The translations under genes and the position numbers were made by a program. A stretch of 46,419 bases of DNA from Candidatus Taylorbacteria bacterium (GTDB lineage: Bacteria > Patescibacteriota > Minisyncoccia > Phycocordibacterales > HO2-43-120), in contig JBDTMN010000010.1 of the NCBI GenBank assembly GCA_039934295.1, positions 1-46,419 of the forward strand. Reading direction: 5' to 3'. Shown here one piece after another: positions 1-20,947 of this stretch. The stretch's first letter is position 1. Every line of letters begins with the position of its first letter. The notes below the pieces were generated by a model. The model saw only the letters and a list, made by a program, of their open reading frames with translations, was not told where the DNA came from and ran no database searches.

Positions 1-210
1 CTCAGCGTCGACAAAAAATTACAGGGGAATTTTTTGTGCGCGATGCAGGACTCGACCCTTACAGGGTCAGTACCCCAATTGGATATTTTTCTTCGAAAGC
101 TCCAAAAATATCTCAATCGGGCTTCGAGTCCTGACGAAAGTACTCCCAGCACTTTCTCAGCGTCGACAAAAAATTACAGGGGAATTTTTTGTGCGCGATG
201 CAGGACTCGA
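1..210. repeat. 55-bp direct repeat (1-55 and 156-210) at tRNA-Val
   Basis: Bases 1-55 and 156-210 are identical. Each copy holds a perfect AT-rich inverted repeat (arms 11-20/28-37 and 166-175/183-192, 7-nt loop) followed by the last 18 nt of the tRNA-Val gene as read on the minus strand. The right copy is the true tRNA 3' end; the left one is an orphan fragment. Between them, 124-133 is the exact inverse complement of the 10-nt tRNA piece at 46-55 and 201-210. The repeat begins at the window edge and may extend further left. Confidence 0.85.
166..192 (-). terminator. AT-rich hairpin just 3' of tRNA-Val
   Basis: This is a perfect inverted repeat with 10-bp arms (166-175 and 183-192) and a 7-nt loop, directly after the tRNA 3' end on the minus strand. 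The arms are almost all A/T and end in a T run on either strand. It may terminate or help process the tRNA transcript. The same hairpin recurs at 11-37. Confidence 0.5.
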
Positions 211-4733: not shown

Positions 4734-4808
4734 GGTGACTATGGTGTAGCGGTAGCACACGAGCTTGTGGAGCTCTTAGTTTGGGTTCAACTCCCAATAG
4801 TCACCCCA
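4734..4808 (+). tRNA. tRNA-His (anticodon GUG)
   Basis: G-1 lies at 4734 opposite C73 at 4805, the hallmark of tRNA-His. Acceptor GTGACTA pairs with TAGTCAC, the anticodon loop TTGTGGA gives GUG, and the T arm is TTGGG/CCCAA. CCA is encoded (4806-4808), unlike the other two tRNAs here. Bases 4788-4805, its 3' end, recur at 4981-4998. Confidence 0.94.
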
Positions 4809-4848
4809 AAATAATGAGATAAAGACGCTAGTGTTTAGCGATTATATT

Positions 4849-4998
4849 TTGGGAGTGAGTATTGTGAGTTGAAAGACGGAGGCGGTATACAAGAGAGCTT
4901 CTCTGCTTGTCGCCGAGTCGGGGTCGAGAGTACTTTGGCTTTTGACATTTTTCATGTCAAAAGACTTAGTAACTCGTGACCAACTCCCAATAGTCACC
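4849..4998 (+). ncRNA. candidate structured RNA ending in a tRNA-His 3'-end copy
   Basis: Closing stems 4849-4856/4983-4990 and 4866-4870/4971-4975 enclose two hairpins (4881-4914 and 4940-4962). The 3' end (4981-4998) equals the T-stem 3' strand and acceptor 3' strand of the tRNA-His next door. It may be an RNA, or the inverted repeats of a small mobile element that uses the tRNA end as target; sequence alone does not decide. Confidence 0.35.
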
Positions 4999-5089
4999 TC
5001 AATATAGCTCAACGGGGCTTTTAATTAGGGCTTATAAAAGCTTTATAAATAAGGGTTTTATGCTTATATGTCACTTTATCATCAAAAAG

Positions 5090-5161: not shown

Positions 5162-6250
5162 ATGACATTCAATAAAAATCATCCATACGACGACTTACCC
5201 AAACTTCCCCCTACTAGCGACTTAAGAGCGGAAAGATTTTCCTCTGCCCTAGTTAAGGCTCGGGCTGAACTCGCAGAATTAAAAGGTTACCTTCATTCTA
5301 TTCCGACAAATCCCATGCTTATTATCTCACCTTCAATTTTACGTGAGTCTATTGCCAGTTCAGAGATAGAAGATATTCACACAACACTTGTTGATGTACT
5401 GCAAACTCAATTATTGTCAGATGAAATAAAAGGTTCAGGGGCAGATAAAGAAGTTTTGCGATATCGTGACGCGCTTGTTTGGGGTTTTGAAAAAATGAAC
5501 GAGACAAGTATCTCTACTCGACTTATTTTAGGTGTTCACAAAAAATTGATGCCACATCTTCCCGAGGAATATCGAAAGGACCAGAATTATATTGTTGACA
5601 GAGCCTTGGGAGAAAAGTTGTATACGCCCCCATCTCCAACTGAAATATCACGACTTATGTATAACTGGGAAAACTTTGTCAATAATTCTGTCGATCACTT
5701 AGACCCCCTTATTAAATGTGCAATTGCCCACTATCAATTTGAAGCAATCCACCCTTTTGCTGATGGGAATGGGAGAACAGGTAGAATTCTCATTGTTCTC
5801 CAGCTCATTAAGGAGGGTTTGCTTCCATTGCCCACATTGTTCATCAGCGGTTATTTAATCAAACACAGAAGTGATTACTATAAGCACCTTCGTGAAATTA
5901 CCTATTCAGGTGAGTGGGGCGGGTACATTTCTTTTATGCTTGATGCTTTTTATCATCAAGCTTTTGAGACTAAACGAGTTTTGCTCTCAGCTAAATATGC
6001 TTATGATTCATTTAAGAAAATACTCAAGATTGAACATTCATCGATTTATTCTGCTGATCTAGTTAACTCACTATTCTCTTTTCCAGTTATTAATCCAAAT
6101 AAATTAGCCAAAGAATTGGGAACCCATAGGGTTACTGCTAGTAAGTATCTGAAGGCAATGACAAAAGCTGGATTATTGCGTGAGTATAAATCAGGTACAT
6201 ATCACCTGTATTTAAATTTCCGGCTTATGGATGCCATGCAAAATAAATAA
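5162..6250 (+). CDS. Fic-family protein AMP-transferase with winged helix
   Basis: The 362-aa protein is expected to transfer AMP from ATP to a protein hydroxyl group. The active-site motif HPFADGNGRTGR is intact (about residues 197-208). The N-terminal SSEIEDIHTT segment (about 65-74) matches the inhibitory-helix motif region of class II Fic proteins, so it is likely self-inhibited. Residues about 295-345 form a winged-helix-like domain (KLAKELGTHRVTASKYLKAM). It sits in an AT-rich islet after tRNA-His, with a palindromic operator-like site upstream. Its target is unknown; roles in stress control or defence are possible. Confidence 0.92.
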   Translation: MTFNKNHPYDDLPKLPPTSDLRAERFSSALVKARAELAELKGYLHSIPTNPMLIISPSILRESIASSEIEDIHTTLVDVLQTQLLSDEIKGSGADKEVLRYRDALVWGFEKMNETSISTRLILGVHKKLMPHLPEEYRKDQNYIVDRALGEKLYTPPSPTEISRLMYNWENFVNNSVDHLDPLIKCAIAHYQFEAIHPFADGNGRTGRILIVLQLIKEGLLPLPTLFISGYLIKHRSDYYKHLREITYSGEWGGYISFMLDAFYHQAFETKRVLLSAKYAYDSFKKILKIEHSSIYSADLVNSLFSFPVINPNKLAKELGTHRVTASKYLKAMTKAGLLREYKSGTYHLYLNFRLMDAMQNK

Positions 6251-14609: not shown

Positions 14610-14672
14610 CCCCGTAGTGAATTTTGGCATTGCGGGAAGCGCATGTGAGGGGTGCCAAAATCTACTACGGGG
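14610..14672 (+). repeat. 20-bp stem-loop upstream of the giant gene
   Basis: Arms 14610-14629 and 14653-14672 are complementary over 18 of 20 positions, with a loop of 23 nt. It lies between the terminator and the giant gene's -10 box and may be a regulatory site or insulator. Confidence 0.6.
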
Positions 14673-14709
14673 TTATCCCCACTTTTTTTAAGTATTGCCA
14701 ATGCTTCTA

Positions 14710-14718
14710 TGATAAAAT
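14710..14718 (+). promoter_or_regulatory. extended -10 box of the giant surface-protein gene
   Basis: TGA-TAAAAT ends 7 nt before the ATG at 14726, the leaderless geometry seen repeatedly here. Confidence 0.5.
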
Positions 14719-14725
14719 ATGGCTT

Positions 14726-17700
14726 ATGCGAAGGCGATTACAAAATACGGCCGGGGGTTTTTCAACTATTTTTTCTTTTTTAGTATTCGGAGCCACCTGT
14801 TGTATTTCTCTCTTCTCTTACTCTCTCCAAGAAGGATACCTAACAAGTGTTCTCACCGCTCTTCCTTCTCCTCTTGGCATTCATGTAGCGAATGGGGAAG
14901 GTAATTATGCCGCGTCCGTTGCGGACGCGGCCCTCTCCCCGCAATCTCTCTCGCTCTCCTCTCCTCCCATCACCCAAAACCCAATCTACGTTCCCCAATT
15001 CAATCTTGAAGAAGTCACCGAGTCTTACGCAACCTATCTCAACGCGCTCTACGTCTCTCTTCAAAATCAATTCACTACTCTCTCCCACCTCGCAATCATC
15101 GAAACAGCTCCTGTCGCAAGCTTCGTGAGCACTTTCGACAATCCGAGAGAAAAAATTAACTCCACCGTCCTCTCCGAAGACATTCCTGCCGATTCTTCAC
15201 TCGCATCTCTTCCCCTTGCAGACGCTTCACTCGCATCTGTCCCTCTTGCTCTCGCAGACATCTCACTTTCCGACACCGCTTCACAACCCGCACGCTTATC
15301 CTGGTGGCAGAAGTTTCGATGCGTCATTGACCCCTTTGTTCCCTGGGCCACTCCCTCCTATTGTCCCAAAAAGAGCGAGCCCAATGTCTCCATTACTACA
15401 ATCACGAACTCCGTAGCTTCAGTCACAAACTCTGTCGCTACAGTTACCGACTCTCTCTCGCTCACCCTGTTGAACTGGTGGCAGAAACTTCGATGTTTCG
15501 TCGACCCCTTCATGCCCGGAGCCACACCTGCATATTGTCCGAAACCAACCGTGCAAATCACGCCTGCGCCCATCTCTTCCCCCACGCCTTCTCCTCTCTT
15601 TTCTCTTTTTCAGAACAACCCGTCTACCACAAACATCACCCAAAACCCTACCTACTACACCACCTACACTACGCAAGGTGTCCCACAATCCTACGTCGAC
15701 GCTCTTTTCACGAATCTCCAGAACCAACTCTACGGTCTTGCTCTCCACGAATCCCTCCAGACCGACCGAATTTTTGACAGTATCAGACGCTCAAACTCAA
15801 GCTCTAACTCAAATTCGAATTCAAATTCAGGCGGAAGCAGTGGAAGCGGAGGCACCCTCACCTCTCTCGATGCTTCCGGAGGCACAACAGGTCTCTCCTT
15901 TACCGGAGGCCCGATTACCACTTCAGGAACGCTTACCCTAAATGGCACCCTTGCCACCACAAATGGAGGAACTGGCACCTCCACCTCTCCTTCGCAAGGA
16001 CAGCTTCTTCTCGGCAACGCTCTTGGAGGATATGACCTTGTCGCAACTTCGTCTCTCGGCATCGTCGGTGGGGGAGGAGGCATAACTGACTTGTCCACAT
16101 TCACCACCGACGATCTTTCCCAAGGCTCAACAAATCTGTATTCGCAGTGGTTGACTTCCGGCTCCAACATATTTTACAATGCGGGCAATGTTGGCATTGG
16201 CACCACTACTCCCCAATTTGATCTTGACGTAGATGGCACTGCTCGCTTCGGCTCTCTCGTTACCGGAGGACAGACGATCGGTGGAGACTTTGCCGTAACA
16301 GGGAATACTACCTTGGACACATTGAACGGACTTCTCTTTGGCACGAACGGTCTCGTGGGAGCTGTTGCAACTTCTTCTCTCAACATTAATTCTGACAATC
16401 TCGTCCAAGGTTCCACCAATCTTTTCTTTTCCAATACTCTCGTCAATTCTTTCGTGAACGGCTCAACTACTATTCCCAAGACGTACACGGCCAACACCTT
16501 CACCGGCAATCAAACGTTCAATGGTTCCAACCTTTTCGGAGGCGCGGCTACATTCAACGGAGGACTCTCCATTGATGCATTGAACGGACCTCTTCAAGCC
16601 AATAACGGCACAGTCTCTGCCACCACATCAATCGGAGTGCTCTATGGAGGCACTGGAACTTCTACTCCTCCCTCACTCGGACAGCTTCTTCTTGGAAATG
16701 CATCCGGAGGATATGACCTTGTAGCGACTTCATCGCTGAACATTACCTCGAATCTCGCTAGCGTCTCCGGAACTCTCGGTATTGCTAACGGTGGCACCGG
16801 CGCGACTTCATTCGGACAGGGTTGGCTGTTTTCAAGCGGAGGCACAGGAGCGCTCTCGGCTTCGTCTTCTCCGACCGTTGCATACTTGACGGCGACCTCT
16901 ACAACTGCGACCTCGACGTTTGCGGGAGGCATACGAGCTTCATGTTTTTCAGTCGACGGCATCACTTGTATAACTGGAGGAGGTGGAGGAGGGTCGGGCA
17001 CAGTGGGCTCTGGCACAACGGGACAGATTCCTTACTACGCGGCGAACGGAACGACTTTGACCGCGACTTCATCGATCTTTCTCGCGCAGAATGGGAGAGT
17101 TGGGATTGGAACGGTGAGTCCTCAAGCTCTTCTTGATGTAGGCGGTTATGGAAGTCCTGTGTTTTCAGGAACGGCACTTGTTGTAAAAGCCAACAACACG
17201 AGTATCGGAGGCATTGAGGTATCTAACGCGGGAATTGGTGGGTATTCCGCACTATCGCTCTATGGAAGTGGTAGTGCGAGCGTGTCTATTTTACAGGGGA
17301 CAGGGACAAATTTCGGCACGATTTTTGGCCTTAGTAACTTTGCTACTGCCCAAGTGGTCGCAACCAATAATCTGATTCTTAAAACAAACGCGGCGAACCC
17401 AATGCTTTTTGCAACCAACAACACAGAAAGGATGAGAATATTATCGAATGGCAACATTGGCATTGGCACCACGTCTCCTTGGCGCACGCTCTCCGTAAAC
17501 GGCTCATCTGATTTAGGAACAAACGCTCTCGCCGGTTCATTTACCGCAACTTCCTCTAACGCCACTTCAACATTTGCGGGAGGAATAACGTCACCTTGCT
17601 TCTCAATCGACGGCATCACTTGTATAACTGGAGGAGGTGGAGGAGGGTCGGGCACAGTGGGCTCTGGCACAACGGGACAGTTCCCTTACTTCGCTGCGAA

Positions 17701-20700
17701 TGGCACGACTTTGACGGCCACGTCATCCTTGTTTCTCGCATCATCGGGGAATGTGGGGATTGGTACTATAACTCCGAGCGGACAATTGTCCATAAATATC
17801 AATAGGGCTAACAGTGGGTATAAAACATGGGACGTTAGTAGTCAAGGTGTGTTCGATGGGTATCAAAACACTAGTGATAGCGTCAAAAGGATTTTGGATA
17901 TAGTGGCTATCGGATCACAGGACGGAACCCAAGGAGGTGGTGTAATTCGTTTTATTACAAATCCAGCAACATCTAATACAGGTGTTGAGGCGATGAGGAT
18001 TGATAGGACAGGCAACATCGGCATTGGCACCACTACTCCTCTCGCAAAACTTTCCGTGAAAGGTGCGGGTTCCACAACAGGCGTGAATTTCCAGACGACC
18101 AATTCAAGTGACACTCCTTTATTTACCATTTTAGATAGTGGCAACGTCGGGATTGGAACTTCTGCTCCTCAACAGCAACTAACTCTTTCAGGTACTTCAA
18201 GTGTAAGTATGCTTACAGAAATATTTTCAAACGATACAGCATCCGGAGGTATTTTGGGATTGAAAGCAAGAGGAACATTAGGAACTCCAGCAGTGCCACA
18301 AGCTAACGATAATCTCTTTAGTATTGGAGCGGGAGGATACAATACTGTGACTATGTACAACTACAATAAAGCATTTTTTGGTATGAAAGCTTCACAAACT
18401 TGGACTTCAACTGCTAATGGTACATATATGACTTTTGAAACAACTCCTAATGGTTCAACTACTCGAGCAGAAAGAATGAGAATTACGGATGCAGGCAACA
18501 TCGGCATAGGCACCACTACGCCATCGGCAAAACTCCAGATATCTTCTGATACTTCTATTTTGCGCCTCTCAAGCTCGGTGGGGACAAATGGTTTTGACTT
18601 TGCTAGAAGTACAGTAACAGGAGGGCTAGAAATACAGGGCAATCAAGTAGGATTTAATAATATTATTCTCGCGCCTACTTCCGGCAACGTCGGCATCGGC
18701 ACCACCTCCCCATGGCGCACGCTCTCCGTAAACGGCTCATCTGATTTAGGAACGAACGCTCTCGCGGGTTCATTTACCGCAACTTCCTCTAGCGCTACTT
18801 CAACATTTGCCGGTGGAATACGAGCTTCATGTTTTTCAATTGACGGCATCACTTGTATAACTGGAGGAGGTGGAGGAGGGTCGGGCACAGTGGGCTCTGG
18901 CACAACGGGACAGTTCCCTTACTTCGCTGCGAATGGAACAACCTTGACCGCGACTTCGTCAATCTTTTTGGCGACATCGGGGAATGTGGGGATTGGTACA
19001 ACGACACCTGGATCAAAACTAGTAGTTTCTTCCGCTTCTGGCGGTACAGCTCCATGGTTTACTCCCGATCTCTTGATTCAGGGTCCAGGGGCCGGAGTTT
19101 ATATGCAAAATACTGGTGCTGGAGGGGGCTTTGGACACGTAGGGGTTGGGGGTACCTCAGGAAGTCTTATAATGTCTTTCCCAAGCACTAAGACATTACA
19201 ATTTCAGTCTACTGACGGGTCAATCTTCAATCCGAGGATGGTAATTGATGGAGTGACCGGCAGCGTAGGGATTGGAACTTCTGCTCCTCAACAGCAGCTA
19301 ACTCTTTCAGGTACTTCAAATGTAAGTATGCTTACAGAAATATTTATAAACGATACAATATCCGGAGGTATTTTGGGATTGAAAGCAAGAGGAACATCAG
19401 GAACTCCAGCAGTGCCACAAGCTGACGATAATCTCTTTAGTATTGGAGCGGGAGGATACAATACTGTGACTATGTACAACTACAATAAAGCATTTTTTGG
19501 TATGAAAGCGTCACAAACTTGGACTTCAACTGCCAATGGTACATATATGACTTTTGAAACAACTCCTGCTGGTTCAACTACTCGAGGAGAGAGAATGAGA
19601 ATTACGGATGCAGGCAACATTGGTATCGGGACGACGAATCCCAGCACAAACAAACTCGTAGTCGTCGGAGACATTCGAGTGGGCACCTCCGGAACCAACG
19701 GATGTCTCCAAGGATTTGGTGGCGCAGCTCTAGTTGGTTCTTGTTCTTCCGACATCAGATTAAAAAAAGACATCATTCCTTTCACTAGCGTTTTGGATAA
19801 GTTTACACAATTGCAACCCGTCTCTTACTCTTGGAGAAATGATGAATTCCCTGATCGTGGTTTTGGCACAAGCAGAGTATCGGGACTCATCGCGGATGAT
19901 GTGCAAAATATCTTTCCAGAACTCGTAGGGGAAGACAGCCAAGGGTACAAGACAGTGAGCTACGGAGTTGGTTTGCAGATGCTTTCAATCGAGGCCATCA
20001 AGGAGCTAAAAGAACGCAACACCTCCCTCGCTTCTCTCGCCTCCACAACCGCAGAGTCACTTTCAACGAACGTCGGACTTTTGAATTCTTCCCTCTCTAC
20101 ATCTCACCAGACAGTTTCGAGTCTAGCTTTAGCTCTTGACGCAACTGACAAGAAAGTGAACGAAAACTTCAGCTCTCTTGACTCTAAGATTGCCGATATC
20201 GCAAGTACTACCAAAAATCTAGCATCATCACTCCTCACTCTCGACTCCGCGCTACCCTCTACGCTTGCCTCTACCCTCACCGCAAGCTCCACCTTCATAA
20301 CATCCATCGCTTCCTCAACCGCTCTCCTTATTGCTTCTTCAACTGCCGACACCCTCGCTTCATCATCCCCATCGTTCATCACTCGAGTTGCTTCTGCTGT
20401 GCAAGAGCTTGTGCAGTCGGCGGGCGAATGGGCTCTCACCAAAATCACTGCCACTTTGGCAGTCTTCACTCACGTGGAGACGCAGACCTTGAAAACCGAA
20501 ACCGCAGAGGTGACGAAGGGGCTGGAGATGACTGATGCGGCAACAGGCTCGGTGTATTGCGTCATCATCAAGAATGGAGATTGGGATAAGCGAGCGGGTT
20601 CGTGCAACTCGGCAACTTCGACCGCGCCAATTTCAATACCTCCGACAGTCGATTCTCCGGATACATCGAATTCTTCCGATTCTCTCCCAAAAGAGTCTTC

Positions 20701-20947
20701 CAATGAGTCTGCGGATGCGACTACATCGACAACTACGACCGAGATATCTGCGGAACAATCTGAGGGCGACACCTCAACTACCACGTCAGACGAGGGCGAA
20801 AATCCTTCGGCCCCTTCCGAAATTTTGACTCCATCTATTCCGCAATCGTCTGCTGAAACAGAGTCTTCTCCATCTGAAGCTATTCCTTCCGTTTCCGAAC
20901 CAGTGTCCGAAGACACAGGTCGCTCCGAAAGTGCCGAAACGTCGTGA
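14726..20947 (+). CDS. giant secreted repeat protein with S74 intramolecular chaperone
   Basis: The 2073-aa protein is probably a surface fibre. It opens with a signal-like helix (TIFSFLVFGATCCISLFSYS, residues 13-32). A Ser/Ala/Pro-rich region holds a duplicated motif WWQK-(F/L)-RC-DPF-P-ATP-YCPK (about 193-217 and 251-273). From about 489 to 1635 there are eleven (V/I)GIGT-x-x-P repeats, typical of trimeric fibre shafts, with Gly-rich linkers. SDIRLKKDI near residue 1675 opens a Peptidase_S74 chaperone domain, which in phage tail spikes trimerises the fibre and cuts itself at this Ser. About 300 Ser/Thr-rich residues follow it, including a VYCVIIKNGDW..C segment and an acidic tail. Start at 14726 matches the signal; an ATG at 14624 adds 34 unfitting residues. 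Confidence 0.85.
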   Translation: MRRRLQNTAGGFSTIFSFLVFGATCCISLFSYSLQEGYLTSVLTALPSPLGIHVANGEGNYAASVADAALSPQSLSLSSPPITQNPIYVPQFNLEEVTESYATYLNALYVSLQNQFTTLSHLAIIETAPVASFVSTFDNPREKINSTVLSEDIPADSSLASLPLADASLASVPLALADISLSDTASQPARLSWWQKFRCVIDPFVPWATPSYCPKKSEPNVSITTITNSVASVTNSVATVTDSLSLTLLNWWQKLRCFVDPFMPGATPAYCPKPTVQITPAPISSPTPSPLFSLFQNNPSTTNITQNPTYYTTYTTQGVPQSYVDALFTNLQNQLYGLALHESLQTDRIFDSIRRSNSSSNSNSNSNSGGSSGSGGTLTSLDASGGTTGLSFTGGPITTSGTLTLNGTLATTNGGTGTSTSPSQGQLLLGNALGGYDLVATSSLGIVGGGGGITDLSTFTTDDLSQGSTNLYSQWLTSGSNIFYNAGNVGIGTTTPQFDLDVDGTARFGSLVTGGQTIGGDFAVTGNTTLDTLNGLLFGTNGLVGAVATSSLNINSDNLVQGSTNLFFSNTLVNSFVNGSTTIPKTYTANTFTGNQTFNGSNLFGGAATFNGGLSIDALNGPLQANNGTVSATTSIGVLYGGTGTSTPPSLGQLLLGNASGGYDLVATSSLNITSNLASVSGTLGIANGGTGATSFGQGWLFSSGGTGALSASSSPTVAYLTATSTTATSTFAGGIRASCFSVDGITCITGGGGGGSGTVGSGTTGQIPYYAANGTTLTATSSIFLAQNGRVGIGTVSPQALLDVGGYGSPVFSGTALVVKANNTSIGGIEVSNAGIGGYSALSLYGSGSASVSILQGTGTNFGTIFGLSNFATAQVVATNNLILKTNAANPMLFATNNTERMRILSNGNIGIGTTSPWRTLSVNGSSDLGTNALAGSFTATSSNATSTFAGGITSPCFSIDGITCITGGGGGGSGTVGSGTTGQFPYFAANGTTLTATSSLFLASSGNVGIGTITPSGQLSININRANSGYKTWDVSSQGVFDGYQNTSDSVKRILDIVAIGSQDGTQGGGVIRFITNPATSNTGVEAMRIDRTGNIGIGTTTPLAKLSVKGAGSTTGVNFQTTNSSDTPLFTILDSGNVGIGTSAPQQQLTLSGTSSVSMLTEIFSNDTASGGILGLKARGTLGTPAVPQANDNLFSIGAGGYNTVTMYNYNKAFFGMKASQTWTSTANGTYMTFETTPNGSTTRAERMRITDAGNIGIGTTTPSAKLQISSDTSILRLSSSVGTNGFDFARSTVTGGLEIQGNQVGFNNIILAPTSGNVGIGTTSPWRTLSVNGSSDLGTNALAGSFTATSSSATSTFAGGIRASCFSIDGITCITGGGGGGSGTVGSGTTGQFPYFAANGTTLTATSSIFLATSGNVGIGTTTPGSKLVVSSASGGTAPWFTPDLLIQGPGAGVYMQNTGAGGGFGHVGVGGTSGSLIMSFPSTKTLQFQSTDGSIFNPRMVIDGVTGSVGIGTSAPQQQLTLSGTSNVSMLTEIFINDTISGGILGLKARGTSGTPAVPQADDNLFSIGAGGYNTVTMYNYNKAFFGMKASQTWTSTANGTYMTFETTPAGSTTRGERMRITDAGNIGIGTTNPSTNKLVVVGDIRVGTSGTNGCLQGFGGAALVGSCSSDIRLKKDIIPFTSVLDKFTQLQPVSYSWRNDEFPDRGFGTSRVSGLIADDVQNIFPELVGEDSQGYKTVSYGVGLQMLSIEAIKELKERNTSLASLASTTAESLSTNVGLLNSSLSTSHQTVSSLALALDATDKKVNENFSSLDSKIADIASTTKNLASSLLTLDSALPSTLASTLTASSTFITSIASSTALLIASSTADTLASSSPSFITRVASAVQELVQSAGEWALTKITATLAVFTHVETQTLKTETAEVTKGLEMTDAATGSVYCVIIKNGDWDKRAGSCNSATSTAPISIPPTVDSPDTSNSSDSLPKESSNESADATTSTTTTEISAEQSEGDTSTTTSDEGENPSAPSEILTPSIPQSSAETESSPSEAIPSVSEPVSEDTGRSESAETS
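18149..19619 (+). repeat. 352-bp internal duplication in the giant gene
   Basis: Bases 18149-18500 and 19268-19619 (offset 1119) are almost identical with scattered single changes, including silent ones. Each encodes one VGIGTSAPQQQ..GERMRITDAGN module. Shorter near-identical blocks lie at about 16960-17040, 17610-17690 and 18840-18920 (the Gly-rich SGTVGSGTTGQ linker) and at 17466-17580/18705-18800. Confidence 0.9.

Follow-up and report, generated by a model that had tools for sequence, protein, structure and literature searches.

The window analysed here is the entire 46,419-nt contig JBDTMN010000010.1 (G000:C10) of a Candidatus Taylorbacteria bacterium, whose genome (G000; 1.05 Mb, 99% complete) is assembled in 25 contigs. 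Two of the tRNA genes in the window, tRNA-His and tRNA-Val, are followed by structured units that carry an inverted and a direct copy of the 3′ end of the adjoining tRNA. The tRNA-His gene (anticodon GTG; forward strand, positions 4735–4808, with an encoded CCA at 4806–4808) was identified by both ARAGORN and Rfam (RF00005). The unit located behind it on the same strand begins with a predicted hairpin (hairpin A, CCAAAATAAT...ATTATATTTTGG, 4806–4852), followed by (i) an arm in which the T-arm and acceptor 3′ strand of the tRNA are repeated in inverted orientation (4848–4873), (ii) a folded core (4872–4983) and (iii) an exact 18-nt direct copy of the tRNA 3′ end (4981–4998). The last of these repeats, recognized in an earlier note on this DNA as a recurrence of 4788–4805, was confirmed, and can be extended to position 5006 (26 nt, 92% identity). 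The note had also described TTGGGAGT (4849–4856) as an inverted copy; this sequence is present and complementary to 4983–4990, but a better register is longer and pairs 4848–4873 with 4786–4811 (26 nt, 85%), so that GTGA.TATTG.GAGTT faces AACTC.CAATA.TCAC of the second copy. Folding reproduced the two strong hairpins reported inside the unit (approximately 4875–4919 and 4922–4981), which belong to a three-way junction. The core was assigned to class 2 (see below) by alignment (A6), by covariation and by a match of 51.5 bits to the class-2 model R2, a score that is not independent, since this core was one of the sequences used to build the model.

As the earlier note had stated, the same order of parts is found at tRNA-Val (TAC; minus strand, 191–264; ARAGORN and Rfam RF00005). 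The unit behind this gene (minus strand, 36–190) is complete and comprises hairpin A (approximately 168–190), hairpin B, an inverted T-arm strand (approximately 123–133), a class-1 core and the direct copy (36–53). It is supported by the predicted fold and by a match to the class-1 model R1 (45–134, minus strand; 80.4 bits, likewise not independent, as the Val core was among the sequences from which R1 was built). Positions 1–35 of the minus strand are identical to the start of this unit and represent the beginning of a further tandem copy, cut at the contig end.

A full unit consists, in order, of hairpin A, an inverted acceptor strand, hairpin B, an inverted T-arm strand, the folded core and a copy of the T-arm plus acceptor; hairpin B is missing from the His unit. 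The units are non-coding and mostly 115–210 bp long; lengths of 116–286 nt cover most cases, with a single one of 410 nt. Their cores fall into two main classes. Class-1 cores, exemplified by the Val unit, have a stem of the type GCCCGATTG...CAATCGGG, followed by GTACT and a small hairpin, while class-2 cores, exemplified by the His unit, contain GACGGAG...CGAGTCGGGGTCG...CGTGACC and likewise fold into a three-way junction. An alignment of 13 class-1 cores revealed compensatory changes in 22 of the 29 predicted pairs. In larger alignments, which were fitted to the models and hence are biased towards them, 93.7% of the class-1 and 98.9% of the class-2 paired cells were occupied by pairs, with 25 of 30 and 23 of 26 pairs, respectively, changed on both sides. 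The covariation values of both classes were reached by none of 500 shuffles. A third core type, longer and less regular (GGGAAGGGGTCGGG...GAGTCTTCGAGG), was observed behind tRNAs Gly-TCC, Arg-TCT, Pro-TGG and Arg-GCG in G000 (L006, L008, L019 and L028) and behind Thr-TGT (L150) in G001, a sister genome of the same genus.

Analysis of the arms revealed that they follow the gene next to which a unit is located. Among 168 non-redundant class-1 matches, 113 are found no more than 130 nt downstream of a same-strand tRNA, and these tRNAs represent 36 types. The first 10 nt of the inverted T-arm are the exact complement of the adjoining tRNA in 74 of the 113 cases (2.3 expected with another tRNA), and in 100 if one mismatch is allowed (8.9 expected). 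An exact match of the inverted acceptor was obtained in 29 cases (0.7 expected); it mostly precedes the T-arm complement by 20–31 nt, with hairpin B between them. The class-1 model contains the pairing of the T-arm stem, but neither the match to the tRNA nor the acceptor. Agreement with the tRNA is stricter for the inverted arm than for the right-hand copy, the 3′ copy being most often the degenerate part. No tRNA was found upstream of 22 units; on inspection, several of these lie behind tRNAs missed by ARAGORN, and the others gave no firm element boundaries.

For class 2, whose model was built without arms, 32 of approximately 49 matches (counted by eye) were placed within 130 nt of a tRNA. 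Units of this class also follow the tmRNA gene (L258, L276) and a protein gene (L275, L045), 62–69 nt of whose end are repeated in both loci; we take this gene to be topA from its C-terminal zinc-finger sequence. Class-2 units located behind Lys tRNAs (L254, L255, L257, L268, L269 and L207) share an arm of the type ACTTGTG...CACAA, with no match to the T-arm, and may target the very end of the tRNA. At L118, L134 and L140 the inverted arm fits the adjacent tRNA and the right copy resembles the end of another tRNA, as if two units had recombined.

The distribution of the units was examined at several levels. In G000, 19 of approximately 38 tRNA genes (ARAGORN, combined with a search for each tRNA's 3′ end) are accompanied by one to three downstream copies of their own 3′ end, usually 100–200 nt away. 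Across all loci of at least 5 kb, copies of the last 15 nt of a tRNA (up to one mismatch) were found 69 times downstream and once upstream, and thus are not due to chance. Within the order, 397 genomes were sampled; 295 of them (74%) contain matches to the class-2 model, for which the order was the search range, and 196 contain matches to the class-1 model. The latter was also applied to a phylum-wide sample of 380 genomes, where its matches were confined to the same order (9 genomes), and 12 genomes searched in depth contained 7–37 class-1 matches apiece. A strict class-1 pattern retrieved 42 stretches from 84,980 species genomes; their record titles name Candidatus Taylorbacteria, Paceibacterota, Parcubacteria or the Patescibacteria group, and in four cases only an uncultured bacterium. 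The conditions on related genomes and on compensatory changes that the earlier note had named as refuting its idea did not refute it: the arrangement recurs in hundreds of units across one order of Patescibacteria, and the stems show compensatory changes in both classes.

No viral contig matched the class-1 pattern. Two class-2 pattern matches in viral contigs were judged to be chance hits (both lie within coding sequence of GC-rich contigs, with no tRNA nearby), and one class-2 unit searched against plasmid and phage records gave no match. When the window was compared with Rfam 15 at the gathering score, the tRNAs alone matched; no family was found for the units in twelve class-2 loci, and a loose search with two unit regions produced matches at chance level only. 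The earlier note knew of no described element with this layout, and none was found in Rfam or in the open-licence literature searched.

The presence of units is patchy. In G001, a copy was detected at only 5 of 30 tRNAs, compared with the 19 of approximately 38 in G000. A comparison of two genomes of one genus revealed an empty site: behind tRNA-Arg-TCG of G129 the sequence ...GGTAGGCGCA is joined directly to TAAAA, whereas in G364 a unit of approximately 130 nt is found with the same right junction. The tRNA 3′ end is repeated directly on the two sides of the insert, and the empty site lacks this repeat. From this one site we infer that the insertion point would lie next to the gene 3′ end.

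Cores also seem to have spread within genomes, in which near-identical cores are found at different tRNAs, each with arms that fit its own tRNA. The variable hairpin had its closest counterpart in the same genome, at another tRNA, in 32 of the 83 cases (0.386), about four times the mean obtained after shuffling (0.095; maximum 0.241), a rate to which shared ancestry within arrays contributes; tRNA type gave no signal in this test. For example, the Gly-CCC and Val-TAC units of G142 have a common core, including an extra C, and different arms. Other pairs sharing a core at different tRNAs are Pro-TGG and Gly-GCC in G023, and Tyr and Ile-GAT in G000. The homology between units stops at the edges of the core.

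At tRNA-Leu-TAG of G000 (L032, G000:C3:4160–9069), a 159-nt stretch over the first unit is repeated exactly 3.3 kb away, with minus-strand genes between the unit copies; those tested showed no Pfam family above the cut-off. As this was the only gene-bearing array seen, gene cargo as a rule was rejected. In G001, the units behind tRNA-Gly-CCC, Val-GAC and Val-TAC (L151, L153 and L166) are interrupted or terminated by a palindrome of the type AAGAATGTCAACRCTTAGTGTTGACATTCTT, which may be a further repeat that inserts into these hairpins.

Regarding the remainder of the window, no downstream copy of its 3′ end was found for the third tRNA, Leu-GAG (2899). A Fic-family gene (SoFic-like, 5162–6250) begins approximately 160 nt past the His unit, and positions 14624–20947 form one open reading frame of 2107 aa.

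Taking these data together, we consider it about as likely as not that the features behind tRNA-His and tRNA-Val both belong to a family of miniature mobile DNA elements that are non-coding, non-autonomous and matched to their targets. The earlier note had suggested a family of tRNA-targeting mini-elements. The hundreds of units, the covariation, the empty site and the signs of intragenomic spread are in favour of such a family, but the restriction to tRNAs was too narrow, because tmRNA and topA also have units of the same core class behind them. A unit sits directly 3′ of its target gene, with the left arm as the reverse complement of the target end and the right end as its direct copy; the right end repeats the last part of the target, so the gene is left intact. 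In the proposed mechanism, the element would move as folded single-stranded DNA, by means of a host-encoded enzyme acting in trans, and would find its target by base pairing between arm and target, in a manner similar to the guide and cleavage site of IS200/IS605. Recognition of a fixed sequence is unlikely for targets as unlike as the tRNA T-arm and topA codons, which favours pairing by the arms. These could come to match a new target by being copied from it (template switching). It is possible rather than probable that there is one system throughout the order, in which one core settles behind almost any tRNA, tmRNA or topA gene and rewrites its own DNA guide from the target at or after insertion.

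Candidate enzymes were sought in genomes with and without class-1 units. Tyrosine recombinases are encoded by one or two genes in nine of the ten unit-bearing genomes tested; in G000 the domains found (PF00589 and a SAM-like N-terminus) are those of a putative Xer-type protein. Y1 transposase genes are present in six of ten tested genomes, including G000, which has three Y1 proteins. Reverse transcriptase, found in 5 of 12 genomes and absent from G000 and six others, was rejected as a general enzyme. No integrase gene is contained within a unit, the units being too short for one, and the idea of recombinase genes adjacent to class-1 units was rejected, as none was found at the loci examined.

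Several observations weigh against mobility of the units. No movement, excision product or circle was seen, and the genomes represent one per species, which gives no close-strain view of insertion. Gene conversion among resident units could also spread the cores, and the arms of some class-2 units (Lys and Val-CAC tRNAs) do not match the T-arm. In addition, no enzyme could be linked to the units in the candidate searches: tyrosine recombinases also occur in genomes without class-1 units and were not matched in G183 (89% complete), which has units; Y1 was not found at E 0.001 in G011, G031, G142 and G183, all of which have units; and no R1 matches were present in the Y1 and tyrosine recombinase loci examined.

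The lack of an identified enzyme is in agreement with an explanation that needs no mobility, in which double template switching during replication, at gene ends prone to hairpins, would have produced the direct-inverted-direct structure locus by locus and gene conversion would have homogenized the cores. Reverse-complement arms are known to arise and to be repaired by template switching (PMC8794818), and the end of homology at the core edges is what gene conversion predicts. A mutational process does not, however, account for two specific conserved cores of 80–110 nt at more than 36 targets across an order, and the patchy presence and the empty site also argue against it; we regard this explanation as unlikely. 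Slightly less likely again is an integron-like arrangement, in which a Xer-type tyrosine recombinase would join a folded att site to a gene's 3′ end in double-stranded form, the units being empty or gene-bearing cassettes. The imperfect hairpin with a bulged side hairpin, the tandem arrays anchored at one site, the genes between the units of the tRNA-Leu-TAG array and the frequency of tyrosine recombinase genes would fit such a system. On the other hand, the arm ends, as read by eye and with no attC model run, lack the attC R box (GTTRRRY), the recombinase also occurs in genomes without class-1 units and gave no hit in G183, and targets such as topA have no sequence in common with tRNA, which defeats recognition by sequence.

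Finally, the units could be structured RNAs or regulatory elements transcribed together with the gene, e.g. controlling the folding or processing of the tRNA, which we consider improbable. The great majority of units are on the strand of the tRNA, and the class-2 stems favour G-T among sporadic cells (15 G-T, 4 A-C, drawn mostly from top-scoring matches), in addition to one near-invariant G-T pair; the view that no stems prefer G-T was rejected on these counts. In the class-1 stems, by contrast, 44 G-T were counted against 57 A-C, compared with 36 against 2 in the tRNA acceptor stems of the same loci, which served as a control. This difference from the control points to a structure formed by the DNA, or to copying from one arm to the other. 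An RNA is also difficult to reconcile with patchiness within a genus, with up to three tandem copies, with location behind a protein gene and with the absence of an Rfam relative. The proposal of the earlier note that these are tRNA-derived RNAs sharing the 3′ end processing of the tRNA found no support, given the frequent degeneracy of the 3′ copy, the units behind a protein gene and the missing G-T preference in class 1.

If the units are indeed miniature mobile elements, they would constitute a compact insertion system directed by DNA, whose guide can be read and is rewritten, and the re-aiming of an element at new sites would become directly testable. The order that hosts class 2 comprises uncultured bacteria of ultra-small size, and little is known of their mobile elements. 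Even if not mobile, the units are a widespread structured feature of tRNA, tmRNA and topA ends that is missing from Rfam. They can also break assemblies, as illustrated by the contig studied here, which ends within an array.

The units share features with several known systems. Like the tRNA/tmRNA islands catalogued in Islander (PMC4383910), they occupy the 3′ ends of tRNA, tmRNA and protein genes and form a direct repeat that preserves the gene; they differ in the lack of an integrase gene, in their size (mostly 115–210 bp), in the use of one core at many tRNA types and in the added inverted copy of the target. REP/REPIN sequences with TnpA-REP (PMC3116915, PMC8266576) are similarly short, non-autonomous, hairpin-forming intergenic repeats, and G000 has Y1 (IS200-like) genes; the units are distinguished by target-specific arms and a fixed place behind gene ends, and Y1 genes are missing from several unit-bearing genomes. 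With integron attC sites (PMC2727003) they have in common folding as an imperfect hairpin, tandem arrays and rare gene cargo. The ends of a folded attC site carry the R″ and R′ boxes (RYYYAAC/GTTRRRY), whereas the arms of the units end in the target's acceptor strand (e.g. GTGCGCCGG/CCGGCGCAC), with no R boxes by eye; moreover, the unit arms match the target gene and no integron integrase was shown. IS608 of the IS200/IS605 family inserts 3′ of a target sequence that pairs with a 4-nt guide located 5′ of a hairpin base (PMC5934647). The units differ from this family in having target-specific arms of approximately 10–25 nt and a right end that is a copy of the target, with no transposase gene within the unit or, for class 1, nearby. 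Nevertheless, their inverted acceptor is placed 5′ of hairpin B and their inverted T-arm 5′ of the core hairpin, and by analogy with IS608, with no claim of membership in its family, the arms probably act as pairing guides.
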